In this document: in pieces, positions 36,902 to 58,388 of the stretch | How the letters are laid out: each line of letters starts with the position of its first letter | Position numbering within the stretch: position 1 is the stretch's first letter | Assembly: GCF_017308015.1 (NCBI RefSeq) | Contig: NZ_JAFKFW010000004.1 | Span: forward strand, 124,001 to 188,000 | DNA length: 64,000 nucleotides | Origin: Allobosea sp. | GTDB taxonomy: Bacteria; Pseudomonadota; Alphaproteobacteria; Rhizobiales; Beijerinckiaceae | Direction of reading: 5' to 3' | The notes under the pieces: model-generated | Database searches by the model: none | What the model saw: only the letters and a program-made list of their open reading frames with translations | What the model was told of the DNA's origin: nothing | Made by a program: the position numbers and the translations under genes

Positions 36902-36924
36902 GCCGCCCTGGAGACGAGACTGCC

Positions 36925-41244: not shown

Positions 41245-41290
41245 GTCGGGCGCTGCCGCCAAGCGGCGCGGCCGAAAATAAGATGCGCAT

Positions 41291-41345
41291 TCAAGATAAA
41301 CCATCTTGATTTGCTACCGAAAAAATACAAGAATGCATTTCGGTA
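41291..41345. promoter_or_regulatory. Two adjacent inverted repeats between regulator and importer operon
   Basis: First dyad TCAAGAT-AAACC-ATCTTGA (41291-41309). Second dyad TACCGAAA (41315-41322) and TTTCGGTA (41338-41345) with a 15-base spacer. Both are perfect and lie in an AT-rich island in front of the three-domain regulator (minus) and upstream of the importer operon (plus). Two different palindromes may match the two different DNA-binding domains of the regulator; this is inference. Confidence 0.6.
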
Positions 41346-42801: not shown

Positions 42802-43908
42802 ATGGATAAGCATGATTTCGCAGAAGATTGCGTCAATCTGGCAATCGAGCGAGGGGCCGATCCCTCTCGCCGCGATCTGATCCGCAATGCGCTCGCCATG
42901 GGCATCGCCCCTGCGGCGCTGACGCTCGCCGGCAACGGCGCGGCTCTCGCGCAGGCCCGCAAGGAGGTCGTTCTCGTCAATTTCGGCGGTGTGGCCATGC
43001 CTGCGTTCGAAGAAGCGTTCGTCAAGCCGTTCGCGGCCGAGGGCGGTAAGATCGTGCTGGACGGAAGCGGCGCGTTAAGCGGCAAGATCCTGACCATGGT
43101 GCGGTCCAAGAACGTCACCTGGGACATCTGCGATTCCGGCGTGACGTCGCTCGGCGAACTGGGCCCCCATGACGTTCTTGAGGACATCGATTACTCCATC
43201 GTCGACAAGAGCAAGGTTTTCCCTGAATTCGCCTATGAAAAGGGCGTGGTGAACTACATGTTCAGCACGGTCATGGCCTGGGATACCAGCAAGATCAAAA
43301 CCGAGCCGACACTCGCGGATTTCTTCGATACCAAGAAATATCCCGGCCGCCGCATGATGCGGAAGAATTCGCAGGCCATGCTCGAGATGGCGCTCCTGGC
43401 GGACGGTGTGCCGAAGGACAAGCTCTATCCGCTGGACGTGAAGCGGGCTTTCGCGAAGATCGCGACGATCAAAAAGGACCTCCTGTTCTGGTCGAGCGGG
43501 TCGGACAGCCAGAGCCTGCTGCGTGATGGCGAGTGCGTCATGGGCATGCTTTGGCACACGCGGGCCAACGTCCTGATCGAGGAGACCGGCGGCCGCATCC
43601 AGTATACGTTCAAGGACGGATTGCTGCAGCCCGGCATCTGGGTCGTGCCCAAGGGCAACCCGGCCGGCAAGGAGGCCATGCGCGCCATCGCGTCCATGCA
43701 GAAGCCGGAAGGTCAGATCCGTTTGCTGGCGGCAATGGGGAACGGCCCGGCCAATCCGCTTGCAAACGCCCAGGTTCCCGCTGAGCTGGCCGCGCGGAAT
43801 CCGTCTTCGCCACAGAACGCAGCCGTTCAGGTAAAAGTAAACGCCGAATGGTATACGGCGAACCACACCAAAACATATCAAGAATTTCTTGATCTTATCT
43901 CGTCGTGA
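42802..43908 (+). CDS. Polyamine/iron-type ABC binding protein (PotD-like), Tat-exported
   Basis: 368 residues. The N-terminus has a twin-arginine signal, PSRRDLIRNALAMGIAPAAL (about residues 21-40), with cleavage likely after ALAQA near residue 51. The mature part is a spermidine/putrescine-binding fold: VVLVNFGGVAMPAFEEAFVK, then NVTWDICDSG, MAWDTSKI, and PGRRMMRKNSQAMLEMALL. The PGRR...LEMALLADGV block is shared with the binding protein at 63236, so the two are paralogues. A palindrome after its stop may raise its expression over the permeases. Confidence 0.92.
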   Translation: MDKHDFAEDCVNLAIERGADPSRRDLIRNALAMGIAPAALTLAGNGAALAQARKEVVLVNFGGVAMPAFEEAFVKPFAAEGGKIVLDGSGALSGKILTMVRSKNVTWDICDSGVTSLGELGPHDVLEDIDYSIVDKSKVFPEFAYEKGVVNYMFSTVMAWDTSKIKTEPTLADFFDTKKYPGRRMMRKNSQAMLEMALLADGVPKDKLYPLDVKRAFAKIATIKKDLLFWSSGSDSQSLLRDGECVMGMLWHTRANVLIEETGGRIQYTFKDGLLQPGIWVVPKGNPAGKEAMRAIASMQKPEGQIRLLAAMGNGPANPLANAQVPAELAARNPSSPQNAAVQVKVNAEWYTANHTKTYQEFLDLISS

Positions 43909-43937
43909 TCTTGGTGCCAGTCGGTAGGAAGACTTAG

Positions 43938-43951
43938 CATCATCGATGATG
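43938..43951 (+). repeat. Palindrome between binding-protein and permease genes
   Basis: Perfect 14-base palindrome CATCATCGATGATG, 30 bases after the binding-protein stop and about 40 bases before the first permease. Such intergenic hairpins often stabilise the upstream message so that binding protein exceeds permease; here that role is inferred. Confidence 0.45.
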
Positions 43952-43992
43952 ATGCGGCCGAGAGCTGCAGGGCTTCAAACAGGATTGAATAG

Positions 43993-44874
43993 ATGAGTGT
44001 TCATGCCTCGGCCAGAGAGCGGCGAGCAGGATTAAGCCTGCTCGCCGGTACCCATACGCGGTATTGGCTCCTGATCGCGCCGGCCTTGTTCATGCTGTGC
44101 GTGTTCTACATATACCCGATCGGCCGCGTGCTCTGGATGAGTGTAACCGTCCCGGCGCCCGGCTTGGGGAATTACGAACTCCTTGCGACCAGCGCATCGA
44201 TCCACAAGATGCTGCTGACGACGGCGCGGATCACCATGGTGACCACCGTCGTTACGCTGATCTTGGCCTATATTCTGGCTTATACACTGGTGCATTCGTC
44301 GCCGCGAACGCAGCGATGGATGTTTCTCGGCATCCTGATCCCATTGTGGATCTCGGTCCTCGTGCGGGCATTCGCCTGGTTCGTCCTGCTGCGTCGGGAT
44401 GGGCTGATCAATTCCGTTCTGATGTCGAGCGGCATCATCGATACGCCGCTGAGCCTGATCTGGAACGAGACGGGCGTGATGATCGGCATGATTCACTACA
44501 TGCTGCCGCTGGGCGTGCTGCCGATCTACGCCAACATGCGCGATATCGATCAACGCTGCATCGCCGCGGCTCGTGGACTGGGCGCGAAGCGGTTTGAGGC
44601 TTTCCGGAGGGTCTTCCTGCCGTTGTCCCTTCCGGGCGTGGTGGGCGCAGGCATCCTCGTCTTCATCTTCTCGCTTGGTTTCTTCGTGACTCCGGCGCTG
44701 CTGGGTGGCGGCAAGACGCTGATGATCGCCGAGTACATCAAGGTTCAGATTCTCGAAGTCGTCCGTTGGGGACTGGGCACGATGCTCGCCGCAACCCTGC
44801 TTCTGCTGATCGGCGGGTTGCTGGCGGCGCTGAGCAGGCTGGTGAACCTGCGTAAACTCTTCGGAGCTGGCTGA
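43993..44874 (+). CDS. Polyamine/iron-type ABC transporter permease, PotB-like
   Basis: 293 residues with about six helices. Family motifs include LLIAPALFMLCVFYIYPIGRVLWMSV split over residues 23-48, and the EAA loop RCIAAARGLGAKRFEAFRRVFLPLSLPGVVGA at about residues 188-219. It ends in a one-base overlap with the second permease. Confidence 0.94.
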   Translation: MSVHASARERRAGLSLLAGTHTRYWLLIAPALFMLCVFYIYPIGRVLWMSVTVPAPGLGNYELLATSASIHKMLLTTARITMVTTVVTLILAYILAYTLVHSSPRTQRWMFLGILIPLWISVLVRAFAWFVLLRRDGLINSVLMSSGIIDTPLSLIWNETGVMIGMIHYMLPLGVLPIYANMRDIDQRCIAAARGLGAKRFEAFRRVFLPLSLPGVVGAGILVFIFSLGFFVTPALLGGGKTLMIAEYIKVQILEVVRWGLGTMLAATLLLLIGGLLAALSRLVNLRKLFGAG

Positions 44875-45665
44875 TGAGCACGAACGGCTTTGGCAATATC
44901 TCGATCATGACGCGGTCGATGGCGTGGTTGATCGTCTGCTTCCTCGTGCTGCCCATCACCATCGTCTTCGCAGTGTCGGTGACGGACAAGCACTATCTGT
45001 CGCTGCCCGAGCAGGGAATTTCGTTCCAGTATTACGAGAAGCTGTTCACTTCCGGCCCCTGGATGACGAGCATTCTGCAGAGCTTTGTCATTGCATGCGC
45101 ATCCACGGTCGCGGCGGTCCTGCTCGGCACGTTGTGCGCCATCGGCTGCTGGCGCCTGGGCAACCGTGCAAGCGATTTCGTCCGGATGCTGATGCTGGTG
45201 CCGATCATGGTTCCCACCATCGTCTATGCGCTTGGAATCTATCAGTTCTGGATCGATCTGCGTCTGCTCGACAGCTATACCGGGCTGATCATCGCGCACA
45301 TCGTGACGGGGCTGCCCTATGTGGTGATCACCGTCTCCACGGCGCTTGCGGGGTTTGACCCGCGCCTGGAGCAGGCTTCGCTCAGCCTCGGCGCCAGCAT
45401 TGGCCAGACGCTGAGACTGGTGATCATTCCCAACATCAAGCCGGGGGTGATCTCGGGGGCGATCTTCGCCTTCATTCACAGCTGGGATGAACTCGTCCTG
45501 GCTCTCTTCATCGCCGGCCGCGCTGTCTTCACCCTGCCGCGACGCATGTGGGACGGCATCAACGAATCGCTGGATCCGACCATGGCTGCCGTTGCGGCGG
45601 TTCTGATCGCGATCACTGTCAGTCTTCTCTGTACCGACGCCTATACACGCTCGCGACGAGCCTAA
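44874..45665 (+). CDS. Polyamine/iron-type ABC transporter permease, PotC-like
   Basis: 263 residues with about six helices. The EAA loop is LEQASLSLGASIGQTLRLVIIPNIKPGVISG at about residues 166-196. It begins on the last base of the preceding gene (ATGAG overlap), so the permeases are made together. The amidohydrolase gene follows after 23 bases. Confidence 0.94.
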   Translation: MSTNGFGNISIMTRSMAWLIVCFLVLPITIVFAVSVTDKHYLSLPEQGISFQYYEKLFTSGPWMTSILQSFVIACASTVAAVLLGTLCAIGCWRLGNRASDFVRMLMLVPIMVPTIVYALGIYQFWIDLRLLDSYTGLIIAHIVTGLPYVVITVSTALAGFDPRLEQASLSLGASIGQTLRLVIIPNIKPGVISGAIFAFIHSWDELVLALFIAGRAVFTLPRRMWDGINESLDPTMAAVAAVLIAITVSLLCTDAYTRSRRA

Positions 45666-45688
45666 TCGGAACTTGTGAGGTAAATCCA

Positions 45689-47287
45689 ATGTCTGACGAA
45701 CGCGCTCACGGCGCCCAGAAAACCACTGCGCTCGGCTGGCTCGAACAGAACGCCGATCAGTTGTCCGCCAATCATATGACCATCTGGAATCTGCACGAGC
45801 CGTCCTGGCGCGAGTACAAGTCCGCAGCCTGGTATGTCGAACGTCTGCGGGCCGAGGGCTTCACCGTCGAGGAAGGCACAGGCGGCATGCCGACCGCCTT
45901 CTGCGCGGAATGGTCCAATGGCGATGGGCCGACGATCGGTGGCTATGCCGAGTACGACGCGGTTCCGGGGACGTCGCAGGCGGCTGTTCCGTACCATCAG
46001 CCGCGCGAGGGGGTCAGCCGGCACGCGGCAGGCCATACCGATCCGCATTCCGCGCTCGGCATCGGTTCTTTTGCCGGTTTCCTTGCGGCCAAACATGCGA
46101 TGGAGCGCCATGGTATCAAGGGGCGGCTGAAGTTCTTCGGCGAGCCGGCCGAGAAGATGTGCGGCTCAAAGCCCGTGCACGCGGCCAAGGGCTATTACGA
46201 CGACCTCGACGCCGCCATCAGCTTTCACCCGCACTCGTTCCCGGCACTGGCGAACAGCTGCTTCTGGGACACCCACAGCGCGCCCTACTGGAGCCGGATC
46301 TACACCTTCGAATGCAACAATCCGGAAACGTGGCAGCAGGGCGCCGGCCTTACCACCGTCACGCATAACCACTCGACCGCGCGTGCACCCGGCGCCATCG
46401 ACGCCGTCTGCCTCATGTACACCTCGTCGAAATACACGAAGGAATCCATGCTGCCACACCATGGCAGTTGGAGTCTGAACGAATATATCGTTCAGGCAGG
46501 TTACGCGGCTGCCGACAACCGCGCGCCGGGTCTCGCCCAGATCCAGTATTCGCTGCGCGCGCCGACGCTCGACATGTGCGAGCGCGTCTTCGAGGTGCTC
46601 GACCGCAATGCCGAGCATTGCGCTGCAATGACCCATTGCACGACCTCGGCCGCATGGATCACGCGGACTCGGGCAGGCCTGCCCAACCATGCCATGGCGG
46701 AGACTGCCTGGCGCAATTTCGAGGCCGTCGGTGCGCCGCAATGGAACGAGCGGGCGCGTGAGTTCGGGCGCGAGATTCAAAAAAGCCTCGGCGTCGAACC
46801 GATGGATAATCCGTTCGCGACGGAGATCCAGACCCTGACCGCGCCCTGGGAAGGCGAGAAGGCGTTCCGCGCCCAGTTGCCGGCCTGGCAGAAGAATCTC
46901 GCGGCTGACGATTACGTGGACTACACTTGGCATGCGCCGACGGTCCGGCTCTATGTCGGGCGGCCGACGCTGAAATCTGTCCCCGGCATGCGCTATCCCG
47001 ACTGGACGCGCCATGCGATGGGCGGCATGCCGGACTGCATCGATCCGATGTGGTCGACAGCCAGCAAGGTGATCGCCATGACGATCATCGATCTGCTCAC
47101 CGACGGCACGTCGCTGGCCAAGGCCCAGGACGAGTTCAAGCAGCGCACTGGCGGCGGGATCGGCGGATCGAACTGGGTCGCTCCGCTGTTGCCGCGCGAT
47201 TTCGAGGCCCCGATCCATTACCGCTGGCCCGAATACGTCACAACCGAACGCGGCACCGAATGGACGACGCCGACGGCTGCCGGCTGA
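45689..47287 (+). CDS. M20 amidohydrolase, p-aminobenzoyl-glutamate hydrolase (AbgB)-like
   Basis: 532 residues, longer than standard M20D proteins, as for AbgB. Features are GGYAEYDAVPG (about residue 89), HTDPHSALGIGSFAGFLAAK (about 118) with metal ligands in place of the C-G-H-D motif, FGEPAEKMCGSKPVHA (about 150) and SFHPHSFPAL. AbgB relatives hydrolyse amides of aromatic or other N-blocked amino acids. GAGG lies nine bases before the ATG at 45689. Its place between the importer and the deiminase-like gene suggests that the imported compound is N-acylated and is first freed of its acyl group. Confidence 0.88.
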   Translation: MSDERAHGAQKTTALGWLEQNADQLSANHMTIWNLHEPSWREYKSAAWYVERLRAEGFTVEEGTGGMPTAFCAEWSNGDGPTIGGYAEYDAVPGTSQAAVPYHQPREGVSRHAAGHTDPHSALGIGSFAGFLAAKHAMERHGIKGRLKFFGEPAEKMCGSKPVHAAKGYYDDLDAAISFHPHSFPALANSCFWDTHSAPYWSRIYTFECNNPETWQQGAGLTTVTHNHSTARAPGAIDAVCLMYTSSKYTKESMLPHHGSWSLNEYIVQAGYAAADNRAPGLAQIQYSLRAPTLDMCERVFEVLDRNAEHCAAMTHCTTSAAWITRTRAGLPNHAMAETAWRNFEAVGAPQWNERAREFGREIQKSLGVEPMDNPFATEIQTLTAPWEGEKAFRAQLPAWQKNLAADDYVDYTWHAPTVRLYVGRPTLKSVPGMRYPDWTRHAMGGMPDCIDPMWSTASKVIAMTIIDLLTDGTSLAKAQDEFKQRTGGGIGGSNWVAPLLPRDFEAPIHYRWPEYVTTERGTEWTTPTAAG

Positions 47288-47336
47288 GCATCGCCGCCTC
47301 TCCCCAATTTACTTCATCAGCACGGAGATTTCGATC

Positions 47337-48344
47337 GTGTCGATCATTTCGGAACCCGAATACCGCTACAACATGTTGATCAAGCAGTTCGGCTCGCGCG
47401 CCGAGCCGGCCTTCCACAGCGAGTCCGAGCAGCTCGGCGTCTGGGGGCGGCACTGGGGCTGCAACAACGACGTCGGCCAGTTGCGCATGGTGCTGATGCA
47501 TCGTCCGGGTGACGAGCTGAATATCGTCGATCCGTCCAAGCGCCTGCCCGACATCGGCGCCTTCGGCGATCCGGAGAAGGGCTGGTACTGGCGCGGCAAC
47601 TCGATCCCCGATCTGGCGGCCCAGCAGGCCGAGCATGACGGCCTCGTTGCCGCTCTGCGCGAGGAAGGGGCCGAGGTCGTGTTCGTCGATAAGGCGGCGC
47701 CCGGCAAGATGAAGACTGTCTACACGCGTGACAGCGTCATCGCGGTGAATGGTGGCGCCATCGTCACGCGTTTGGGGCCGCCGATCCGCCGGGGTGAAGA
47801 ACAGCCGGTCACGCGCACGCTGGCAAAGCTCGGCATGCCGATCCTGCGCACGATCACCGGTACCGGCCTCATGGAAGGCGGCAGCTTCGCCTTCCTGACG
47901 CCCAAGGTCGCCGTCGTCGCATTGTCCAGCCGTGGCAACGAAGAGGGCGCGCGCCAGCTCGAAGAGGTGCTGCGCACCCAGGGCGTCGAACTCCTGCGCG
48001 TCGAGTTGACCGGCTATCGCCTGCATATCGACGGTCTTTTCGTGATGCTCGATCCGGAAACCTGCTTCCTGAACCCCTCGATGCTGCCCTTCTGGTTCCT
48101 GGAGAAGCTGACCGAACTCGGTATCCGTCAGATCGAGGTCTGCCCGGACGACAAGACCAGCGTCGTGAATTGCCTGGCTGTCAGGCCGGGGCGCGTTCTG
48201 ATGCGGGAGGGGCTCTCGGAGCGCACCCAGGCGAAGTTCGACAAGGCCGGGATCTCGATCCGCTTCGTGCCCTACGACAACGTGGCTCTCGGTGGTGGCG
48301 GCATCCACTGCTCCACCTCGCCATTGATCCGCGACCCGCTTTGA
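47337..48344 (+). CDS. Guanidine-modifying superfamily hydrolase (arginine deiminase/dimethylargininase-like)
   Basis: 335 residues of the pentein fold shared by arginine deiminase, dimethylargininase (DDAH) and amidinotransferases. Visible active-site parts are TGLMEGGSFAFL (acid, about residue 180), GYRLHIDGLFVML (histidine, about 222) and the nucleophile cysteine in LGGGGIHCSTSPLIRD near the C-terminus (about 326). The early VLMHRPGDEL is also conserved in the superfamily. Start is GTG at 47337 with GGAG nine bases upstream. It would hydrolyse a guanidino group to a ureido group, or move an amidino group; which one is not decided by sequence alone. A clear terminator follows. Confidence 0.88.
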   Translation: MSIISEPEYRYNMLIKQFGSRAEPAFHSESEQLGVWGRHWGCNNDVGQLRMVLMHRPGDELNIVDPSKRLPDIGAFGDPEKGWYWRGNSIPDLAAQQAEHDGLVAALREEGAEVVFVDKAAPGKMKTVYTRDSVIAVNGGAIVTRLGPPIRRGEEQPVTRTLAKLGMPILRTITGTGLMEGGSFAFLTPKVAVVALSSRGNEEGARQLEEVLRTQGVELLRVELTGYRLHIDGLFVMLDPETCFLNPSMLPFWFLEKLTELGIRQIEVCPDDKTSVVNCLAVRPGRVLMREGLSERTQAKFDKAGISIRFVPYDNVALGGGGIHCSTSPLIRDPL

Positions 48345-48351
48345 GACGGGA

Positions 48352-48380
48352 GGGCCGGGCAAGAATGCCCGGCCCTTTTT
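48352..48380 (+). terminator. Rho-independent terminator after the deiminase-like gene
   Basis: Nine-base GC stem GGGCCGGGC / GCCCGGCCC, six-base loop AAGAAT, followed directly by TTTTT. It lies seven bases after the stop codon, so the importer/hydrolase operon ends here and the TPP gene starts a new unit or is reached by read-through. Confidence 0.92.
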
Positions 48381-48415
48381 CCGATAATCTGGTCGATCGA
48401 CGCTAAGGAAGAGAC

Positions 48416-49960
48416 ATGAACGGCGCGGAAAGCTTGGTACGAACGCTCGTGGCAAGCGGAGTTGACACCTGCTTTGCCAATCCCGGCACATCGGAAATGC
48501 ATTTTGTCGCCGCGCTCGACCGGGTTGCCGGCATGCGCTGCGTCCTGGGGCTGTTCGAGGGCGTGGTCTCGGGCGCTGCCGACGGCTATGCCCGCATGAC
48601 GGACAAGCCGGCGGCGACCCTGCTGCATCTCGGCCCGGGGCTCGGCAATGCGCTGGCCAATCTTCACAATGCGCGCAAGGCCAACACCCCCGTCGTCAAC
48701 ATCGTTGGCGACCACGCGACGCATCACCGCCGTTACGACGCGCCCCTGACCTCGGATGTCGAAGGCGTCGCCCGCCCGATGTCGAGCTGGGTCAAGACAT
48801 CGATGGATGCGCGTTCCGTGGCGCGGGACGGAGCCGAGGCGGTTGCCGCCTCCCTGGCGGGAGCGGGAGGGGTCGCGACCCTGATCCTGCCGGCCGATAC
48901 CGCCTGGAACGAGTCCGACGGCCCCGCCGCACCAGTGCCTGTCGCGGCCCGGCCCAAGGTCTCCGACGACGCTTTGCGGGAAGCGGTCAGCGCCCTGCGT
49001 TCGGGCGAGCCGACGCTCATCCTCGTCGGAGGACGCGCGCAGCGGGCGCGCACCATGGAGCTCGCCAGCCGGATCGCCGAAACCTGTGGCGCACGGGTTC
49101 TGGGGCCGACCTCCAACGCGCGCATCGAACGCGGCGCCGGCAGGCCTCGCCTCGACCGGATCTTCTACGTGGTCGGGCGGGCTCTGGAGCAGCTCAGCGA
49201 CATCCGCCGCGTCGTGTTGGTCGGAACGCAGGAGCCCGTGGCCTTTTTCGCCTATCCGGGGAAGCCTAGCCTCGTGCTGCCACCCGAATGTCAGGTCCAC
49301 GCCTTCGCCAAGCCCGAAGACGATATTCTCGATGCGCTCGAGCGACTGGCCGACGCGGTGGGCGCGACGGCGACGAGCCCACTCATCCAGCCCCTGAGCC
49401 GGCCGGACCTGCCCACCGGTGCGATCACGCCCGAAACCATCGGCGCAGTGGTCGGTGCGCTGCTGCCCGAGAACGCGATCGTCGTCGACGAGAGCATCAA
49501 TGCCGGCCGCGGCGTCTACCCCGCGACCATCGGCGCTCCCGCCCATGATTGGCTGCAACTGACCGGGGGGTCGATCGGCATCGGCCTGCCCCTGGCTACG
49601 GGTGCCGCGGTCGCCTGTCCCGACAGGCCCGTCGTCGCTCTCCAGGCCGATGGGTCCGGCATGTACACGTTGCAGGCTCTGTGGACCCAGGCGCGCGAGA
49701 ACCTCAACATCACCACGATCATCTTCTCCAATCGCGCTTATGCCAGCCTCGAAACGGAGCTGCACAATGTCGGCGCGACCAATCCCGGGCGAACGGCGCT
49801 CGACATGCTCGACCTCAGCCGGCCGGACCTGGACTGGGTGAAACTGGCGGAGGGAATGGGTGTCGAAGCCGCGCGCGCCGATACGGTCGAGAAGCTGATC
49901 GATCTCTTCGGGCAGAGCGTCAAAAGGCCAGGTCCCTTCCTCATCGAGGTTCCGTGCTGA
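48416..49960 (+). CDS. TPP-dependent enzyme, acetolactate synthase large subunit/2-oxoacid decarboxylase-like
   Basis: 514 residues in three TPP-enzyme domains. The TPP-activating glutamate is in GLFEGVVSGAADGYARM at about residue 48. The central domain follows, and the diphosphate-binding motif lies in ALQADGSGMYTLQALWTQARENLNIT at about 405-430 (A-D-G-S in place of G-D-G-x). Length and the short N-terminus (CFANPGTSEMHFVAALD) are closer to benzoylformate-decarboxylase-like proteins than to true acetolactate synthase, and no small subunit gene is nearby. In this context a 2-oxo acid decarboxylase acting on a guanidino or ureido 2-oxo acid is plausible. Confidence 0.85.
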   Translation: MNGAESLVRTLVASGVDTCFANPGTSEMHFVAALDRVAGMRCVLGLFEGVVSGAADGYARMTDKPAATLLHLGPGLGNALANLHNARKANTPVVNIVGDHATHHRRYDAPLTSDVEGVARPMSSWVKTSMDARSVARDGAEAVAASLAGAGGVATLILPADTAWNESDGPAAPVPVAARPKVSDDALREAVSALRSGEPTLILVGGRAQRARTMELASRIAETCGARVLGPTSNARIERGAGRPRLDRIFYVVGRALEQLSDIRRVVLVGTQEPVAFFAYPGKPSLVLPPECQVHAFAKPEDDILDALERLADAVGATATSPLIQPLSRPDLPTGAITPETIGAVVGALLPENAIVVDESINAGRGVYPATIGAPAHDWLQLTGGSIGIGLPLATGAAVACPDRPVVALQADGSGMYTLQALWTQARENLNITTIIFSNRAYASLETELHNVGATNPGRTALDMLDLSRPDLDWVKLAEGMGVEAARADTVEKLIDLFGQSVKRPGPFLIEVPC

Positions 49961-49983
49961 CCTGACGTCACGCCGCCCGCCAG

Positions 49984-50014
49984 GATGCGATGCAGTTCGA
50001 GGCTGCATCGCATC
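49984..50014. terminator. Long perfect hairpin after the TPP-enzyme gene
   Basis: Twelve-base perfect stem GATGCGATGCAG / CTGCATCGCATC with a seven-base loop, 23 bases after the TPP gene stop. No T-run follows, so it is either a Rho-assisted terminator or a transcript-stabilising hairpin. Confidence 0.55.
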
Positions 50015-50207
50015 TAGACGCCGTCCGCATGATGATGGCCGGTCCGATCCACGAGCCTCGACCGTGCCGGTGGAATCGGGTCCAGCGGCTGCCCCGTCGG
50101 GCTCCGACATTCGCCCGATTGGAAGCGACCTGTTCGGCGGACCGCTTCAAGAAGCGCAAGCTCGGAAATGCGACGTTTCCGATGCAGATTTGAACCAGGA
50201 TATCGCG

Positions 50208-51437
50208 ATGACCGTGACGATCGATTCCGACCGCCTCTGGAACAGGCATATGGAGCTGGCACGTTTCGGAGCCACGGCCGGGGGAGGCGTCTGGCGCCTC
50301 GCTCTCGACGGGTCGGATCTTGAGGCGCATCGAGCGCTGGCGGATATCGCGCTCGGGCTGGGCTTCAAGCTTTTCCTGGACGACGTCGGCAACCTCTTCA
50401 TCCGACGGGAAGGGCTGGATCCGCTCCTGCCGCCCGTGGTCAGCGGCTCGCATTGCGACAGTCAGCCCAATGGCGGTCGCTTCGACGGCATATTCGGCGT
50501 CCTTGCCGCGCTGGAGGCTCTGCAGAGCATCCAGCAATCGGGCGTGCAAACCCGCCATCCCCTGGAATGCGTCGTCTGGAATAACGAAGAGGGTTCGCGC
50601 TTCGCCCCAGGCTGCATGGGCTCGGCGGTCTATTCCGGCGTGATGTCCCTGGAACAGGCCCTGGCCACGATCGGGGACGACGGCGTGCCGCTGCGCGATT
50701 GCGTGCGCGCGCTCCGGGAGCTTCTGCCGGAGGCGGAACATCGTCCGCTGGGGACGCCCTTCGCCGCCCTGATCGAGGCCCATATCGAACAGGGGCCGGA
50801 ACTCGAGGAAGGCGGCATCACGCTGGGCGTCGTTACCGGGATGCAGGGCAATCTGCGCCTGATGGTGGATGTCACGGGCCGAGAGGACCATTCCGGCACC
50901 ACGCCGCGACGGAGGCGCAAGGATGCGTTCTTCAGCGCGGTCACGATTGTCCAGGCCTTGCGGGAGGCCCTGCATGACGAAAAGGACGTTCTGCGTTTCA
51001 CCGTCGGCCGGTTCAGCATCTCGCCGAACGCCTGGTCGGTTGTACCGGGGAGAGCCAGCTTTGCCATCGATCTGCGCCACCCGGATCAGGCGGAGCTGGA
51101 ACGCTGCCATGCGATCGTCATCGAGACCGTGGCTCGTCACGCCGCGCCCTGCGAAGCGACCGTGACCCAAAAATCGAGCGCAATCCCGGTTTCATTCGAA
51201 GGGCCGGTACGCGATGCCATCCAGAGGGCGGCCCAATTGCGGCAGATCAGCCACCGCTCGATTTATTCAGGCGCCGGACATGATTCCCGGTATTTCCCTG
51301 GCCTGTGCCCCACGGGAATGCTCTTCATTCCGTGCAAGGACGGCATCAGCCACAATGAAGCGGAGTATGCGAGCCCATCCGACATCGCCGCGGGAGCGCA
51401 AATCGTCGCTGACGTCATGCTGGAACTCGCCTCGTGA
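50208..51437 (+). CDS. Hydantoinase/carbamoylase-family amidase, first copy
   Basis: 409 residues. This M20-fold group includes N-carbamoyl-L-amino acid hydrolase, beta-ureidopropionase and allantoate amidohydrolase. Metal and substrate motifs are SGSHCDSQPNGGRFDGIFG (about residue 76), WNNEEGSRFAPGCMGS (about 126), AHIEQGPELEEGG (about 192) and SGAGHDSRYF (about 356). The usual H-L-D-T is H-C-D-S here. AGGA before the ATG at 50208 fixes the start. It would remove a carbamoyl group, releasing CO2 and ammonia from a ureido acid, a natural step after the deiminase-like enzyme. Confidence 0.9.
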   Translation: MTVTIDSDRLWNRHMELARFGATAGGGVWRLALDGSDLEAHRALADIALGLGFKLFLDDVGNLFIRREGLDPLLPPVVSGSHCDSQPNGGRFDGIFGVLAALEALQSIQQSGVQTRHPLECVVWNNEEGSRFAPGCMGSAVYSGVMSLEQALATIGDDGVPLRDCVRALRELLPEAEHRPLGTPFAALIEAHIEQGPELEEGGITLGVVTGMQGNLRLMVDVTGREDHSGTTPRRRRKDAFFSAVTIVQALREALHDEKDVLRFTVGRFSISPNAWSVVPGRASFAIDLRHPDQAELERCHAIVIETVARHAAPCEATVTQKSSAIPVSFEGPVRDAIQRAAQLRQISHRSIYSGAGHDSRYFPGLCPTGMLFIPCKDGISHNEAEYASPSDIAAGAQIVADVMLELAS

Positions 51438-51692
51438 GGGGCTGAACCATGCCGGGGGCGGGCGATCCGCCCAGCCCTGCCGCAAGTCACCACATCCGCG
51501 AGCCACGCCAGGCGCGAGGCTTCCCGAATATGGTGACCATCGTCGGCCATGACGCGATGTTCGCAGAAGCATCCCATCTGTCAGCGAGATTGAACGCCCG
51601 TGCAAGCTGCCCTCCTACGCCGGAACAGGTCGGGCGTCGTGCGAAACGGCAGCCGCTCCCGGCAGCTGTTTCACGACAGGAGAGCTTGACCC

Positions 51693-52613
51693 GTGCCCGA
51701 CAAGACGTCTCGGCCGCTGCCATCGCCGGTCTCCCTGCGCGCCTTCGAAGCACTGGGGCGACTGGGAAGCGTTCGCGCTGCGGGGGATGAGCTGGCTGTC
51801 AGCCATACGGTGATCTCGAAACACCTTCGCCATCTGCAAGAGACGCTGGGGGTGGTCCTGATGGCCCAGCAAGGCCGGCGCCTTGTTCTGACCGAGGACG
51901 GGCGGCGCTATCATCAGGACATTGCAAGTGCTTTTGCTCAAATGCGGCGTGCAACCCGCGCCTTGCGCGCCAAACGCCCGTCCAAACTCAATATCTGGTG
52001 CACGCCGGGCATCGTCGGCAACCGCCTGCTGTCGCGGCTGCCGGAATTGACCGGCCCGCCACGCGACTGGGACATCAATCTCCAGCCGACCCTCGCTCGT
52101 CCGGATCTCGCCGGAGGGGAGGCCGACGCGCTCATCACCTATGCGGAAGGGCAGGAGCGGGACGAACGTATTCAGGTCGAGGAGCTGGTTCGCCCGCGTG
52201 TCTTTCCAGTGGCCAGTCCCGCCTTTCTGGCAGGAAGGGCGCAGATGAGCATCGAGGATATCGCCCATAGTGCGCTCATCCATGAGGAATCGACGGAGCA
52301 ATGGGCAAACTGGCTGGCTCTGGCCGGTCTTCGGGAGATTCCGAGCCTGCACGGCCAGCAGCTTTGGCACGCCCATATAGCGATCGAGGGAGCCCGGCTC
52401 GGCCAGGGCATCGCGATCGCCAACGACATGCTGGTGGAGGACGAATTGAGAAGCGGCGCCCTGGTCGAAGTCGGGAGCTCCAACATCTACATGGGCAGCT
52501 ATCGGCTGCTGGCGCTCCGCAAGCGCTGGACCGAACCCACTATCAGCGTGCTGCGTCAATGGCTGCGCGAGGCTTTCCGGGCCGATCCGGCACGGCCCTC
52601 CGTCGCCGGCTGA
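51693..52613 (+). CDS. LysR-family regulator (GcvA-like)
   Basis: 306 residues. The HTH is SLRAFEALGRLGSVRAAGDE then LAVSHTVISKHLRHLQETLG (about residues 14-53), followed by LTEDGRRYHQDIA and an effector domain. Start is a GTG at 51693 with AGGAG upstream. It lies just before gabT in the same direction and after the carbamoylase gene, so it likely controls the GABA-forming genes on one or both sides. The 255 bases upstream hold its promoter, but I see no clear palindrome. Confidence 0.9.
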   Translation: MPDKTSRPLPSPVSLRAFEALGRLGSVRAAGDELAVSHTVISKHLRHLQETLGVVLMAQQGRRLVLTEDGRRYHQDIASAFAQMRRATRALRAKRPSKLNIWCTPGIVGNRLLSRLPELTGPPRDWDINLQPTLARPDLAGGEADALITYAEGQERDERIQVEELVRPRVFPVASPAFLAGRAQMSIEDIAHSALIHEESTEQWANWLALAGLREIPSLHGQQLWHAHIAIEGARLGQGIAIANDMLVEDELRSGALVEVGSSNIYMGSYRLLALRKRWTEPTISVLRQWLREAFRADPARPSVAG

Positions 52614-52725
52614 TCGCGGCGATCGCGAGATCATGTGCGCAAAAGAGACCGATCCGGCGCTTTAATACTGATTGTTGGGGCAGGGGGCGCCTCCTAGCAT
52701 GAACCCAACGATCCAGGAGGCCTTC

Positions 52726-54003
52726 ATGCCGACCAATGCAGAACTTCTCGTCCGCCGCAACAACGCCGTCGTGCAGGGTGTCGGCCATGCCACGCCTCTC
52801 TTCGCCGATCGCGCCGTCAACAGCGAGATATGGGATGTCGAGGGCAAGCGCTATGTGGATTTCGCCGGGGGTATCGCGGTGCTCAACACCGGGCATTGCC
52901 ATCCCGCCATCATCGAGGCCGTGCGCGCCCAGCTAGACCGCTTCACGCATAGCTGCTTCCAGGTCATGGCCTATGAGCCGTATGTCGAACTCGCCGAGCG
53001 CCTGAACGCGCTGGCGCCGATCGACGGACCAGCCAAGACGGTGCTCTTCACCACGGGCGCCGAAGCCACGGAGAATGCCGTCAAGATCGCCCGCGCGGCC
53101 ACCGGCCGGGCCGGCGTGATCGCCTTCACCGGCGGCTTCCATGGCCGCACGATCATGGCCTCGGCGATGACCGGCAAGGTGGTGCCCTACAAGAAGGGCC
53201 TCGGGCCGACGCTTCCCGATGTCTGGCACGTCCCGTTCCCTGCCACCGGCGGCGACGTGAGCGTCGAGGATGCGCTGCGTTATCTCGGCTTCATCTTCAA
53301 GGCGGATGTCGACCCCTCGCGGGTCGCAGCCATCATTATCGAGCCCGTTCAGGGCGAAGGCGGCTTCCATCAGGCTCCGCTGGAGCTGATCGCCAGCCTG
53401 CGCCGGATCTGCGACGAGCATGGCATCATGCTGATCGCGGACGAAGTCCAGACCGGCTTCGGACGCACCGGCAAGATGTTCGCCATGGAGCACTACGATG
53501 CCAAGCCGGATCTGATCTGCGTGGCGAAAAGCCTGGCTGGCGGATTCCCCCTCTCCGGTGTCATCGGACGGGCGGCAATCATGGATGCGGCAGCCCCTGG
53601 CGGCCTCGGCGGCACCTATGCCGGCAACCCTCTTGCCTGCGTTGCGGCGCTGGCGGTTCTCGACATCTTCGAGAAGGAGAAGCTGATCGAACGGGCCAAC
53701 GCCATCGGCGAGCGGGTGCGCAGTTCGCTCGCGCGTATGGCGCAAGCCAACCACCTCCTGCCGATTTCGGAAGCGCGCGGTCCGGGCGCCATGGTTGCTT
53801 TCGACATCATCAAGGAGCGTGGCGGGATCGAGCCGGATGCCGAGGCAACCCGGCGCGTCACCATGCGTGCCCATGAGAACGGGCTGATCCTGCTGTCATG
53901 CGGCACCAACGCCAACACGATCCGGATCCTCGTGCCGCTGACTGCCTCCGACGCGATCGTCGACGAGGGGCTGGCCATTCTCGAAACCGCGCTGGCGGCC
54001 TGA
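52726..54003 (+). CDS. gabT: 4-aminobutyrate aminotransferase
   Basis: 425 residues of class III aminotransferase. It opens with RRNNAVVQGVGHATPLFADR and has VLFTTGAEATENAVKIAR (about residue 105), IIEPVQGEGGFHQAP (about 204), LIADEVQTGFGRTG (about 238) and the PLP lysine in ICVAKSLAGGFPLSGVIGR (about 268), all as in GabT. CAGGAGG precedes the ATG at 52726. It transfers the amino group of GABA to 2-oxoglutarate, giving succinate semialdehyde for the enzyme encoded next. 5-Aminovalerate is a possible alternative substrate. Confidence 0.93.
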   Translation: MPTNAELLVRRNNAVVQGVGHATPLFADRAVNSEIWDVEGKRYVDFAGGIAVLNTGHCHPAIIEAVRAQLDRFTHSCFQVMAYEPYVELAERLNALAPIDGPAKTVLFTTGAEATENAVKIARAATGRAGVIAFTGGFHGRTIMASAMTGKVVPYKKGLGPTLPDVWHVPFPATGGDVSVEDALRYLGFIFKADVDPSRVAAIIIEPVQGEGGFHQAPLELIASLRRICDEHGIMLIADEVQTGFGRTGKMFAMEHYDAKPDLICVAKSLAGGFPLSGVIGRAAIMDAAAPGGLGGTYAGNPLACVAALAVLDIFEKEKLIERANAIGERVRSSLARMAQANHLLPISEARGPGAMVAFDIIKERGGIEPDAEATRRVTMRAHENGLILLSCGTNANTIRILVPLTASDAIVDEGLAILETALAA

Positions 54004-54024
54004 ACCGCACGAATTGGATACCCC

Positions 54025-55476
54025 ATGCTGAACCTCAACGATCCGTCGCTCCTGAAGTCGCAGTGCCTTGTCGATGGAGACTGGCTCGGCGTAGCCGTTG
54101 ACCCCGTCGATAATCCTGCGACCGGTGCCGTGCTGGCCAAGGTGCCGCATTTCGGCGCAGCGGAGGCCACGACGGCCGTCGAGGCCGCTTCGCGCGCCTT
54201 CAAGCCATGGGCCAAAAAGAGCGCGAAGGAACGCTCCGTCATCCTGCGCAAATGGTTCGACCTGATCATGGCGAACCAGGAGGATCTCGCCAGGATCATG
54301 ACCGCCGAACAGGGCAAGCCGCTGGCCGAGGCGCGCGGCGAGGTGGCCTACGCTGCGTCCTTCGTCGAGTTCTACGCCGAGGAAGCCAAGCGCATCTATG
54401 GCGAGACGATTCCCTCTCCTTTCCCGAATTCGCGCATCATCGTGGCCAAGCAGCCGATCGGGGTCTGCGCTGCGATCACGCCCTGGAACTTCCCTGCCGC
54501 GATGATCACCCGCAAATGCGCGCCGGGTCTCGCCGCAGGTTGCACGTTCGTCATCAAGCCGGCGCCTGATACGCCACTGACGGCCCTGGCGCTGGCCGAA
54601 CTCGCCGGGCGCGCTGGCTTTCCCAAGGGGGTGCTCAACATCGTCACCGGTGACGCCAAGGCGATCGGCGGCGTAATGACCTCGCATCCGGCGGTGCGCT
54701 TCGTCGGCTTCACCGGCTCGACCCCGGTCGGCAAGCTCCTGATGCAGCAGGCTGCCTCCACGGTGAAGAAGGTCGGGCTGGAACTCGGTGGCAATGCGCC
54801 CTTCATCGTCTTCGACGATGCCGATATCGACGCAGCCGTACAGGGCGCGATCATCGCCAAGTACCGTAATATGGGACAGACCTGCGTCTGCACCAACCGA
54901 CTCTATGTCCAGGCTGGTATCCATGATGCCTTTGTCGAGAAATTCGCCGGTGAGGTCGCGAAGATGAAGGTCGGCGATGGCGCCGAGCCCGGCGTCGTAC
55001 AGGGGCCGCTGATCAACCAGGCCGCAGTCGACAAGGTCGAGCGCCATGTCGCCGATGCCGTCGCCAACGGTGCCGCCGTCGTGGTCGGCGGCAAGCGCCA
55101 TGCGCTGGGCCGCACCTTCTACGAGCCGACTGTGCTCTCGGGCGTCACCACCAGGATGCTGGTGACGCGCGAGGAGACCTTTGGCCCGGTCGCGCCGGTC
55201 TATCGCTTCGACGACGAGGACGAGGTGGTGGCACTGGCGAACGACACGCCCTTCGGGCTGGCAGCCTATTTCTACACCAAGGATCTCGGCCGGGCCTTCC
55301 GCGTCGCAGAGGAGCTGGAATACGGCATGGTCGGTGTCAATTCCGCGATCCTCAGCACCGAGGTCGCGCCCTTCGGCGGAGTCAAGGAATCCGGCCTCGG
55401 ACGCGAAGGCTCTCTCCACGGAATGGAGGAGTTCGTCGAAATCAAATACATGCTCATGGGCGGTCTCGGGCACTGA
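54025..55476 (+). CDS. gabD: Succinate-semialdehyde dehydrogenase, NAD(P)+
   Basis: 483 residues of the aldehyde dehydrogenase fold. ITPWNFPAAMITRKCAPGLA lies at about residue 152, the catalytic glutamate in GLELGGNAPFIVF at about 254, and the cysteine in NMGQTCVCTNRLYV at about 288; the C-x-C pair is typical of GabD. The C-terminus EVAPFGGVKESGLGREGS is also as expected. Starts 21 bases after gabT. It oxidises succinate semialdehyde to succinate for the citric acid cycle. Confidence 0.94.
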   Translation: MLNLNDPSLLKSQCLVDGDWLGVAVDPVDNPATGAVLAKVPHFGAAEATTAVEAASRAFKPWAKKSAKERSVILRKWFDLIMANQEDLARIMTAEQGKPLAEARGEVAYAASFVEFYAEEAKRIYGETIPSPFPNSRIIVAKQPIGVCAAITPWNFPAAMITRKCAPGLAAGCTFVIKPAPDTPLTALALAELAGRAGFPKGVLNIVTGDAKAIGGVMTSHPAVRFVGFTGSTPVGKLLMQQAASTVKKVGLELGGNAPFIVFDDADIDAAVQGAIIAKYRNMGQTCVCTNRLYVQAGIHDAFVEKFAGEVAKMKVGDGAEPGVVQGPLINQAAVDKVERHVADAVANGAAVVVGGKRHALGRTFYEPTVLSGVTTRMLVTREETFGPVAPVYRFDDEDEVVALANDTPFGLAAYFYTKDLGRAFRVAEELEYGMVGVNSAILSTEVAPFGGVKESGLGREGSLHGMEEFVEIKYMLMGGLGH

Positions 55477-55689
55477 AGCGAGGCTCCGTCGTATCGTGCG
55501 GTCAGCATCGCTGCCCCCGGCGGGGCGACGGGTTCGCGGATCCGGCCGCCATTCCCGCCTGCAGGATCGTGAATCGCCCTGCACGATGCCGGGACCACCG
55601 CCGCGGGCTGTCCACCGGTAGCGGCCGCTTTTCACGAATGCGCTCGCGGAATGGTGCCGAACGGAACTTCCATGTTTGCAGGTAGTGTC

Positions 55690-56940
55690 ATGAATAGAAG
55701 CAATCTGGCGATCAACGCTGATCGTCTCTGGGCGGACCTGATGCAGACCGCCCTGATCGGCGGTACTGCCAAGGGCGGCATCCGCCGGCTGACGCTGACC
55801 GACGAAGATCGGCAAGTGCGCGACTGGTTCTGTGGCGAATGCCGGGCGCTCGGCTGCGAGGTCACGATCGACGAGGTCGGCAATATTTTTGCCGTGCGGC
55901 CCGGCTTGCGCAGCGATCTCGCGCCGGTCGCGATCGGCAGCCATCTGGATACCCAGCCGACGGGGGGCAAGTTCGACGGCGTGCTCGGCGTTCTGGCGGG
56001 GCTGGAATGCCTGCGGACGGTGCACGAGGCAGGCTATCGCACCAACGCCCCGCTGATGCTGGTGAACTGGACGAATGAGGAAGGCTCCCGCTTCGCGCCG
56101 GCCATGCTCGGCTCGGGCGTCCATGCCGGCGTGTTCGACCGCGCCTACGCCGATTCCCGGATCGATGCGGAAGGGCAAACCTTCTCGGCGGCGCTGGACG
56201 GCATCGGCTATCGCGGCTCGGTGCCCGTCGGCCAGATCCCGATCGGCGCGATGTTCGAGTTGCACATCGAGCAGGGGCCGATCCTCGAAGCCGAAGAGAA
56301 GACGATCGGCGTCGTGACCGGGGTGCAGGCGATGCGCTGGTACGACATCGAGATCGAGGGCCGCGAGTCCCATGCCGGATCGACCCCTATGGCCCTGCGC
56401 GCCGACGCGCTGACCGCGAGCGCCGTGCTGATCCAGGAGATCGACGCCATGGCGCGGGGCCTTCATGACGCCGTCGCCACCGTCGGCACGATCGCCGCCC
56501 GGCCCGGCTCGCGCAATGTCATCCCCGGCAGTGTCACGATGTCGCTCGACCTGCGCCATCCCCGAGATGCCGACCTCGACGCCATGGAGCAGGCCGTCGA
56601 GACCGCGCTGCAGGACATCACAGGTGCGCGCGGAATGAGCGGTGCCATGACGCGGATCTGGACATCGCCGTCGGTCCGTTTCGACGAGGCCTGCATCGCG
56701 GCCGTCCGGCGTGCTGCCGCCAGCGGCGGCCACGCCATGCGCGACATCGTCTCGGGCGCGGGCCACGATGCCGCCTATATCGCGCGCATCGCCCCAACCA
56801 CGATGATCTTCGTGCCCTGTGCCGGCGGCCTGAGTCATAACGAGGCCGAGAGCGCCACCTACGCGGATTGCGCAGCGGGTGCCGAAGTCTTGCTGCAGGC
56901 CGTCCTGGATCTCGACCAACGCCACGCAGACGGGCTGTGA
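55690..56940 (+). CDS. Hydantoinase/carbamoylase-family amidase, second copy
   Basis: 416 residues. The motifs are those of N-carbamoyl-L-amino acid hydrolases: IGSHLDTQPTGGKFDGVLG (about residue 80), WTNEEGSRFAPAMLGSGV (about 130), LHIEQGPILEAEEK (about 197), ESHAGSTPMALRADAL and SGAGHDAAYIARI. It keeps the standard H-L-D-T that the first copy has altered to H-C-D-S, so the two may have different substrates. The start at 55690 (MNRSNLAINADRLW) has AGGTAG upstream. It is followed after 17 bases by an aldehyde dehydrogenase gene in the same unit. Confidence 0.92.
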   Translation: MNRSNLAINADRLWADLMQTALIGGTAKGGIRRLTLTDEDRQVRDWFCGECRALGCEVTIDEVGNIFAVRPGLRSDLAPVAIGSHLDTQPTGGKFDGVLGVLAGLECLRTVHEAGYRTNAPLMLVNWTNEEGSRFAPAMLGSGVHAGVFDRAYADSRIDAEGQTFSAALDGIGYRGSVPVGQIPIGAMFELHIEQGPILEAEEKTIGVVTGVQAMRWYDIEIEGRESHAGSTPMALRADALTASAVLIQEIDAMARGLHDAVATVGTIAARPGSRNVIPGSVTMSLDLRHPRDADLDAMEQAVETALQDITGARGMSGAMTRIWTSPSVRFDEACIAAVRRAAASGGHAMRDIVSGAGHDAAYIARIAPTTMIFVPCAGGLSHNEAESATYADCAAGAEVLLQAVLDLDQRHADGL

Positions 56941-56957
56941 ACGGAGCCAATACCGAG

Positions 56958-58388
56958 ATGTCGAATCCTGAGCATTTCTACATCGACGGGCGTTGGGTGC
57001 CCGGCGAAGGCTCCGCAACCCTGGCTGTCATCGACCCGTCGACCGAGAAGGCCTATGCCGAGATCGCGCTCGGCAGTGTCACTGACATCGACAAGGCCGT
57101 GATGGCGGCCCGCAAGGCCTTCGCCGCCTTTGCCGGCACCAGCCGCCACGAGCGGATGGAACTGCTCGAAGCGATCATCGCGGAATACGAAAAGCGCCAG
57201 GACGAGATGGCGGAGGTGATCTCGCGTGAAATGGGCGCGCCGATCAATCTCGCGCGCCGGGCACAGGCGGCGGCCGGCCGTGAGCACCTGTCGCAGGCGC
57301 TGGCCGCCCTCAGGAACTACACCTTCGAGACCCATATCAACAACGTGCTCGTCACTCGCGAGCCGATCGGCGTCTGTGGCTTCATCACCCCCTGGAACTG
57401 GCCGATGAACCAGATCGCCTGCAAGGTCGGCCCGGCCCTCGCCACCGGCTGCACCATGGTGCTGAAGCCGAGCGAGGTGGCACCGATGTCGGCTCTGCTG
57501 TTCAGCGAGATCATGCATGCGGCCGGGGTTCCTGCCGGCGTCTACAACATGGTCAATGGCGACGGCGCCACTGCCGGGGATGCCCTGTCGCGCCACCCGG
57601 AGGTCGACATGGTCTCGTTCACCGGGTCTACCCGCGCCGGCATCCTCGTTGCCAAGGCAGCCGCCGACACAGTGAAGCGCGTCCACCAGGAACTGGGTGG
57701 CAAATCGCCGAACATCCTGCTCGACGATGCCGATTTCGAACAGGCCGTGACCAGAGGCGTGCTCGGCTGCTTCGGCAATACCGGCCAATCCTGCAATGCT
57801 CCGACCAGGCTGCTCGTTCCTGCCGACAGGCAGGCCGAGGTGATCGAGATCGCAGCGCGGGTAGCGGCCACGGTCAGCGTCGGTGACCCCCGCTCCGCCC
57901 AGACGACGATGGGGCCTGTGGTCAGCGCCCTGCAGTTCGAGCGGATCCAGCGGCTGATCGAAGTCGGGATCGCCGAAGGCGCGACGCTGGTCGCAGGCGG
58001 CCTCGGACGGCCGGAAGGGCTTGAGACCGGCTATTATGTCCGGCCGACCATCTTCGCCGATGTCGACAATCAGATGTCGATCGCCCGGGACGAAATCTTC
58101 GGGCCGGTGCTTTCGATCCTGCCTTATCGCTCCGAGGAAGAGGCGGTCGCCATCGCCAACGACACCGTTTACGGTTTGTCGAGCTATGTTACGTCCAGCG
58201 ATATCGAGCGCGCTCGCGGGCTGGCCCGCTCGATACGGGCAGGCATGGTCCATATCAACGGTGCACCGATCGATAGCGCAGCACCTTTCGGCGGTTACCG
58301 GCAGTCGGGGAACGGCCGCGAGGGCGGCGTGTTCGGCTTCGAAGATTTCCTCGAAGTGAAATCCATCTTCGGTCATGGTCGGAGCTGA
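56958..58388 (+). CDS. NAD-dependent aldehyde dehydrogenase
   Basis: 476 residues. The substrate channel motif ITPWNWPMNQIACKVGPAL lies at about residue 141, the catalytic glutamate in HQELGGKSPNILLDDAD at about 242, and the nucleophile cysteine in FGNTGQSCNAPTRLLV at about 275. The C-terminal PFGGYRQSGNGREGG is typical. It is not of the GabD type and has the single-cysteine form used for varied amino- and guanidino-aldehydes. Co-transcription with a carbamoylase makes a ureido- or guanidino-aldehyde a reasonable substrate. Start fixed by GGAG before the ATG at 56958. Confidence 0.93.
   Translation: MSNPEHFYIDGRWVPGEGSATLAVIDPSTEKAYAEIALGSVTDIDKAVMAARKAFAAFAGTSRHERMELLEAIIAEYEKRQDEMAEVISREMGAPINLARRAQAAAGREHLSQALAALRNYTFETHINNVLVTREPIGVCGFITPWNWPMNQIACKVGPALATGCTMVLKPSEVAPMSALLFSEIMHAAGVPAGVYNMVNGDGATAGDALSRHPEVDMVSFTGSTRAGILVAKAAADTVKRVHQELGGKSPNILLDDADFEQAVTRGVLGCFGNTGQSCNAPTRLLVPADRQAEVIEIAARVAATVSVGDPRSAQTTMGPVVSALQFERIQRLIEVGIAEGATLVAGGLGRPEGLETGYYVRPTIFADVDNQMSIARDEIFGPVLSILPYRSEEEAVAIANDTVYGLSSYVTSSDIERARGLARSIRAGMVHINGAPIDSAAPFGGYRQSGNGREGGVFGFEDFLEVKSIFGHGRS

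Follow-up and report, generated by a model that had tools for sequence, protein, structure and literature searches.

The window analysed here is a 64,000-nucleotide stretch of the Allobosea sp. assembly GCF_017308015.1 (contig NZ_JAFKFW010000004.1, positions 124,001 to 188,000), and this study concerns a run of catabolic genes within it that brings together a pentein of the arginine deiminase (ADI) fold, two carbamoylases, a thiamine pyrophosphate (TPP) enzyme and the 4-aminobutyrate (GABA) enzymes GabT and GabD (Table 1). The genes were assessed by an open-frame check and by Pfam and NCBIfam profile scores against the cut-offs of the models. Those named by the initial annotation are open frames at the places given for them and belong to the families assigned. 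They do lie at 45689-58388 as proposed, but the unit is larger and spans 40408-58388, with an importer (41677-45665) and a MerR/XRE/cupin protein, its probable regulator, upstream. Both are assigned to the unit because they recur by the same genes in Bosea-type relatives, where the regulator has a homologue at 62-63% (L038-L040). The functions listed earlier are all present, and a LysR gene missing from that list lies inside the run. According to frames, NCBIfam and Pfam, the span 40408-58388 contains no class I aminotransferase, the nearest being at 37305, and the unit's genes include neither a hydantoinase/dihydropyrimidinase nor any other pyrimidine gene. A guanidinobutyrase is likewise not found in the unit, and the genome's four PF00491 matches are all on other contigs.

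Table 1. Genes of the unit and of the upstream aminotransferase group (window positions)
Feature	Position	Strand	Evidence
2-hydroxyacid dehydrogenase	35984..36901	+	Pfam
Rid protein	36871..37275	+	Pfam
Class I aminotransferase	37305..38528	+	Pfam
MerR + XRE-type helix-turn-helix (HTH) + cupin regulator (probable)	40408..41304	-	Pfam MerR_1, HTH_31, Cupin_2; divergent
ABC importer ATPase, PotA (polyamine) subfamily	41677..42753	+	TIGR01187 376.2 bits (cut-off 355.6)
Periplasmic binding protein	42802..43908	+	PF13416; 75-78% in L037-L040; no NCBIfam match at 1e-8
ABC permease 1	43993..44874	+	PF00528; kept in relatives
ABC permease 2	44874..45665	+	First base is the last base of the permease 1 gene; kept in relatives
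M20-family amidohydrolase, AbgB-like (M20B)	45689..47287	+	TIGR01891 109.5 bits (cut-off 153.75); PF01546 22.1 (cut-off 24.6)
ADI-fold pentein	47337..48344	+	PF02274 62.7 bits (cut-off 22.8)
TPP enzyme, PRK07586 family	48416..49960	+	NF005760 796.3 bits (cut-off 363)
Carbamoylase 1 (CARB1)	50208..51437	+	TIGR01879 350.2 bits (cut-off 204)
GcvA-like LysR regulator	51693..52613	+	NF008352 187.7 bits (under cut-off 288)
GabT, 4-aminobutyrate transaminase	52726..54003	+	TIGR00700 563.5 bits (cut-off 506.65)
GabD, succinate-semialdehyde dehydrogenase	54025..55476	+	TIGR01780 715.8 bits (cut-off 646.35)
Carbamoylase 2 (CARB2)	55651..56940	+	TIGR01879 434.7 bits (cut-off 204)
Aldehyde dehydrogenase	56958..58388	+	PF00171; no equivalog cut-off reached

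The catalytic positions of the pentein were anchored by profile alignments to DDAH and ADI, and residues were counted over 88 sequences (L023 and L027-L029 being dropped as duplicates or near-duplicates, along with matches spanning fewer than 280 query residues). The ADI catalytic set (Asp132, Glu180, His230, Asp232 and Cys325) is present in all 88, as is Arg151, and Arg199 is found in 87. In a study of the M. penetrans ADI, the roles of the catalytic residues are described, Arg223 and Arg276 hold the substrate carboxylate, and Asn198 is among the residues touching the amino and carboxylate groups (PMC3474736). The spacings agree, Asn198-Asp204-Arg223 matching 126-132-151, Glu257-Arg276 matching 180-199, and His313-Asp315 matching 230-232. 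Given these equal spacings and the carboxylate role described in that source, Arg151 and Arg199 are therefore the counterparts of Arg223 and Arg276. Residue 126 is a lysine in 87 of the 88 sequences. In the printed alignment it stands against Asp60 of DDAH, which we take to contact the alpha-amino end of the substrate; it also faces the ADI asparagine by equal spacing, that asparagine itself falling outside the printed alignment. With Lys126 in place of these residues, the pentein therefore probably acts once the alpha-amino group is gone, which speaks against the citrulline-type order considered possible in the initial annotation. The same position is a tyrosine in the AruI-linked penteins of L182, L183, L187 and L188, and an aspartate in L025 and L167, whose DDAH-like penteins adjoin an aminotransferase. 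Judging from these residues, Asp126-type penteins may take the amino acid before transamination, and the Lys and Tyr types a compound without the amino group. The substrate of the window pentein would thus be a guanidino acid lacking an alpha-amino group, and 4-guanidinobutyrate would fit the gene set best.

The pentein shares its fold, the Cys/His/Glu/Asp set and two carboxylate arginines with ArcA and DDAH, but it differs from them in Lys126, in domain structure and in scores far under the cut-offs of all five ADI/DDAH models matched in NCBIfam: 66.4 bits for arcA (cut-off 489.1), and 61.5, 47.2 and 31.1 bits for the DDAH equivalogs (cut-offs 340, 450 and 300). Residues 82-162 of ADI 4bof fall between aligned pieces at the near-adjacent profile positions 124 and 126, so the pentein has no counterpart of the ADI helical domain. 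Classification as a classical ADI was rejected on the cut-offs, the absent helical domain and Lys126, and as a DDAH on the cut-offs and Lys126. The pentein profile reaches DDAH at E 1.7e-21 and the amidinotransferase AGAT at 4.5e-4 or worse, in the C-terminal part alone; a transfer activity is still conceivable from the sequence. With agmatine deiminase families the pentein gives no match at E 0.001 in NCBIfam or Pfam. Arginine dihydrolase (ArgZ), against which the L187 and L188 penteins score weakly, is absent from the five NCBIfam matches of the window pentein. The PDB match covering nearly the whole pentein is 2-nitroimidazole nitrohydrolase, and this identity was set aside because the nitrohydrolase is without the pentein's Arg-Asp pair in the printed alignment. 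Among 101 genomes (its own and 100 relatives), a pentein at 83% or more is found in four, namely its own and those of three members of the genus. The locus is an accessory one.

A scan with an 11-sequence alignment led to 266 confirmed relatives of the pentein, 80 of which make up the loci counted below (L036-L115, in stretches averaging 18.5 kb, some ended by contig ends). Counts were made by tblastn and stop-to-stop hidden Markov model scans with fixed identity thresholds, L060, L075 and L089 being added by hand to the TPP count; gene finding by codon-position GC lost some genes to antisense frames, such as the pentein in L038-L040. The neighbor table holds 94 loci, where L027-L029 are the same contigs as L038-L040. 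The run of importer, M20, pentein, TPP enzyme, carbamoylase and aldehyde dehydrogenase is found again, at identities of 68-88%, in Microvirga (L037) and two Bosea-type loci (L038 and L039), with the aldehyde dehydrogenase gene after the carbamoylase in all three, so the grouping is more than chance. The M20-pentein-TPP-carbamoylase part is also found in L036 and L040, for which the neighbor table has no aldehyde dehydrogenase hit. All eight loci L036-L043 (Bosea, Microvirga, Bradyrhizobium and Rhizobiales/Hyphomicrobiales) share importer, M20 and pentein; six have the TPP gene, five the carbamoylase and seven GabT, and the LysR-GabT pair is present in L037 and L041-L043. Compared with the Bosea-type loci, the window has CARB1, LysR, GabT and GabD in addition between the TPP gene and CARB2. 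In L038-L040, which are of the Bosea type, there are also a PuuE-like hydrolase and a GlcD-like dehydrogenase, the latter scoring 258.2 bits in L028 (cut-off 567.9). As for a GlcD completing the unit from elsewhere in its own genome, the 65% homologue is on another contig, and its context gives no link.

Over the 80 loci, carbamoylases are counted in 10, TPP-type genes in 11 (6 PRK07586, 2 AruI and 3 PRK08266), GabT in 7, GabD in 4, PuuE-like genes in 14, ureohydrolases in 6, class II aldolases in 38 and DAO-type genes in 28. The GlcD-like dehydrogenase is in five, namely three Bosea-type and both Rhodobacteraceae loci. Carbamoylase and TPP genes occur together in eight loci (Fisher p 2.4e-7), and all 10 carbamoylase loci hold M20B (p 1.8e-5), which at 50% identity or more is in the stretch of 30. 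In Kozakia and Komagataeibacter the layout is pentein, M20, class II aldolase, PuuE-like gene and carbamoylase. Around its pentein, M20, aldolase and carbamoylase, the Kozakia plasmid locus (L021, 6788-20581) has several binding-protein genes, a gene for a TonB receptor and two of the polysaccharide-deacetylase (PuuE-like) type. In a large Roseomonas-type group, the importer is accompanied by class II aldolase, GhrA-like, DAO-type and Amidohydro_3 genes, and at the thresholds applied neither a carbamoylase nor a TPP gene is found; we read these loci as an incomplete pathway, or a different one, around the same enzyme. In this group, L077 (1312-10996) and about 20 similar loci have a PotA-type importer by the same pentein family.

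The TPP enzyme is proposed to be a 2-oxo-acid decarboxylase, as the initial annotation had it. In the two Rhodobacteraceae loci L046 and L051, the TPP slot after the pentein is occupied by an AruI-family gene (712.1 and 688.2 bits against NF005712, cut-off 500), with a GlcD-like gene next; L051 also has a carbamoylase, and L046 an aminotransferase. The window's own enzyme is outside the AruI family by NCBIfam. Its own genome has no AruI over the cut-off, and the PRK08266-type TPP genes of L060, L075 and L089 are not AruI. A 70% paralogue in the same genome adjoins a CitE-like gene, followed by methylaspartate ammonia-lyase (598.1 bits, cut-off 286.15). This run on another contig (L132, 6785-12388) contains the TPP paralogue, methylaspartate ammonia-lyase, a CitE/RipC-like lyase and an M20 deacylase; it adjoins an apparent amino-acid-type ABC importer and is possibly a separate catabolic unit.

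AruI exceeds the cut-off in 30 of 385 genomes of the class, with 35 matches, 34 of which were used for neighborhoods. A pentein gene is in the stretch of five of these 34 (L167, L182, L183, L187 and L188), and a ureohydrolase in five (L166, L168, L187, L189 and L193), one of which has a pentein too. In L188, a pentein with 26% identity to that of the window lies between AruI (640.9 bits) and an M20B homologue (60%), so the AruI-pentein-M20B trio occurs with two different pentein kinds. In L025 (Phaeobacter, 7226-10801) and L167, a DDAH-like pentein is tightly clustered with AruI and an aminotransferase, and this arrangement is a candidate for a methylarginine or citrulline-type route. In the same sample of genomes, M20B is found in 18 besides its own, and AruI is present in nine of these, vs 30 of 384 overall (Fisher p 9.6e-7). 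From 20 M20B places outside its own genome, 19 were used for neighborhoods, and a pentein is near in five. The surroundings of M20B outside pentein loci gave no pointer to a substrate: contexts are varied, two being beside dipeptide-type importers as judged by eye. M20B probably releases the guanidino acid by amide hydrolysis; the N-acylated substrate named earlier was a guess, since the enzyme scores under the family cut-off and its relatives occur in such varied contexts.

CARB2, the conserved one of the two carbamoylases in the relatives' loci, is proposed as a 4-ureidobutyrate hydrolase. It has an asparagine in its N-V-I-P-G stretch, which presumably binds the carboxylate; CARB1 has a serine there. 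CARB2 matches the N-carbamoyl-beta-alanine amidohydrolase 8c46 at E 2.9e-116 and the allantoate amidohydrolase 1z2l at 1.9e-51. The 8c46 enzyme is reported to cleave N-carbamoyl-gamma-aminobutyric acid, more than 1.5 times better than the alpha isomer (PMC10952681); the window unit differs from that system in having no pyrimidine gene. In a tree of 19 rows, some on long branches, CARB1 pairs with the carbamoylase of the Albimonas locus L089 (100/100), and CARB2 groups with those of the Microvirga, Bosea-type and Pseudogemmobacter loci (80/70), so that near relatives of both are found in other pentein loci. The window carbamoylase groups stand apart from six other carbamoylases of the genome; those of Kozakia/Komagataeibacter and Devosia are without firm placement, and the locus genes need two label changes.

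Taken as a whole, the unit is real and coherent, and it is probably a deiminase-carbamoylase variant of 2-ketoarginine catabolism. The AruI gene in the TPP slot of two relatives and the recurrence of carbamoylase, TPP enzyme and GabT support one pathway, and the guanidino-ureido-amine route to GABA with a 2-oxo-acid decarboxylase, already suggested from the window alone, is still the best reading. We give close to even chances, and slightly less, to an imported guanidino compound being degraded via a 2-oxo acid, deimination and decarbamoylation to GABA and then succinate. The compound imported would probably be an arginine-like acid in amide form, from which the M20 hydrolase would release the guanidino acid. 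An oxidase, dehydrogenase or transaminase, differing by species, would then yield the 2-oxo acid (5-guanidino-2-oxopentanoate or a close analogue), which the TPP enzyme would decarboxylate to the aldehyde. The aldehyde dehydrogenase would convert 4-guanidinobutyraldehyde into 4-guanidinobutyrate, the pentein would deiminate this to 4-ureidobutyrate, and a carbamoylase would release GABA, CO2 and ammonia. Finally, GabT and GabD would take GABA to succinate. Gene content, conservation, the catalytic residues and the AruI-family gene in two relatives' TPP slot are observed here, while all substrates, the place of the pentein in the sequence of reactions, the M20 function and the use of two carbamoylases are inferred. 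The dehydrogenase, Rid and aminotransferase genes at 35984-38528 are possible but unproven suppliers of the 2-oxo acid; the aminotransferase, previously suggested as the partner, finds little backing, with a homologue at 50% or more in just two of the 80 pentein loci (55% in L046 and 60% in L074), and 38-40% in L050, L053 and L098.

Agmatine can be degraded by agmatine deiminase and N-carbamoylputrescine amidohydrolase (AguA/AguB). The proposed route resembles this one in using deimination, then carbamoyl removal, rather than urea release, but its substrate is predicted to bear a carboxylate and its carbamoylase is of the M20 type. The arginine transaminase pathway uses AruH/AruI, KauB, guanidinobutyrase, GabT and GabD. 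The unit shares with it the 2-oxo-acid decarboxylase, the aldehyde dehydrogenase, GABA and succinate, with AruI in the slot of two relatives, but it has pentein and carbamoylase in the place of guanidinobutyrase, a TPP enzyme of another family and no conserved class I transaminase. In two papers giving the intermediates, the known routes to GABA via 2-ketoarginine use ureohydrolases (PMC2242806; PMC7268258), and the main text of the latter contains no word starting with "ureido". By title, abstract start or term count in the open-access literature, no bacterial pathway of this form was found for ureidobutyrate or guanidinobutyrate deiminase, in agreement with the initial annotation, to which none was known. 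Open-access papers on "ureidobutyrate" are by title mostly about seaweed chemistry and metabolomics, those on its spelling variants include one about beta-ureidopropionase, and for guanidinobutyrate deiminase and related terms, all non-zero counts among the papers listed concern argininic acid or 5-guanidino-2-oxopentanoate.

Several observations weigh against this route. The window TPP enzyme reaches only 120.3 bits against the AruI model (cut-off 500), its own family is named after the acetolactate synthase large subunit, and the 70% paralogue in a methylaspartate ammonia-lyase run indicates that this TPP family is not guanidine-specific. At 50% identity, 70 of the 80 pentein loci are without carbamoylase, and 69 are without any of the three counted TPP kinds (L053 and L065 hold one of more distant relationship); in many, class II aldolase and DAO-type genes are found instead, so the pentein family is wider than this pathway. 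Because the genomes are related, the co-occurrence p-values are too small; the five AruI-pentein loci come from two families, four of them from one, and the M20B-AruI overlap from four. With ureohydrolases near both pentein and AruI, and three strong ones in its own genome, the deiminase route may be redundant. Finally, CARB2 scores 583.9 bits against NF006769, a subfamily model that bears the name allantoate amidohydrolase and has its cut-off at 452, and six further carbamoylases over the cut-off lie in the genome outside the window.

The wide variation in gene content over the 80 loci, and the extra block of CARB1, LysR, GabT and GabD between TPP and CARB2, would also be expected if separate catabolic genes had simply gathered in one region without forming a single pathway. 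This is unlikely, if the foremost of the alternatives, for the pentein is repeatedly accompanied by GabT, carbamoylase and TPP genes, in differing orders. Next to it in our estimation, and improbable too, is a route for a cyclic guanidine or a hydantoin-like ureide, where a PuuE-like hydrolase would open the ring for pentein and carbamoylases, the Gab genes being mere neighbors. It would agree with the PuuE-like genes near some penteins and with the long nitrohydrolase match, but the window unit has no PuuE-like gene (no search for one was made in the remainder of the genome), the nitrohydrolase is without the Arg-Asp pair, and the AruI and TPP genes are left without explanation.

The order given in the initial annotation puts the pentein first, an arginine-type amino acid passing through citrulline and 5-ureido-2-oxopentanoate, then decarboxylation and oxidation to 4-ureidobutyrate and GABA. 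For this unit we consider it distinctly improbable: the near-invariant lysine replaces the DDAH aspartate, and no class I aminotransferase is conserved with the pentein. It may exist elsewhere, as the L025 and L167 clusters suggest, their DDAH-like pentein keeping that aspartate beside aminotransferase and AruI. The least probable alternative, and a very unlikely one, is the same chemistry at another chain length, with homoarginine or 5-guanidinovalerate leading to 5-aminovalerate and glutarate and GabT/GabD acting as DavT/DavD. Enzymes of the GabT/GabD family can serve C5 substrates, but the AruI family in the TPP slot points to the arginine chain, and both Gab proteins are over the cut-off for models named for C4 substrates.

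Beyond the deiminase-carbamoylase route in this unit, we tentatively suggest, while leaning against it, that the Lys126-marked penteins are a separate family of deiminases whose substrates are guanidino acids lacking the alpha-amino group, either 4-guanidinobutyrate itself or its 2-oxo/2-hydroxy precursors. Together with a carbamoylase they could take the place of guanidinobutyrase in a way not described before, with neither urea nor urease involved, mainly in Alphaproteobacteria, the 2-oxo acid coming from 2-hydroxyacid, D-amino-acid-type or transaminase enzymes according to species. If true, the route would add a branch to arginine-type catabolism, a carboxylate counterpart of the agmatine deiminase route yielding GABA without urea. 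It would also give a testable function to a pentein family called just "arginine deiminase family protein" in the plasmid records seen, and caution against reading such genes as ATP-yielding ADI pathways.

In L064 (11022-12697) and L070, the pentein is followed by DUF1028 and ureohydrolase genes, the one in L064 being agmatinase-like and under the agmatinase cut-offs. Downstream of the unit in the window, the minus strand (58823-62062) encodes a 354-amino-acid protein with no Pfam match at 1e-6, together with an AMP-dependent ligase and a hotdog thioesterase, which apparently form a separate unit.

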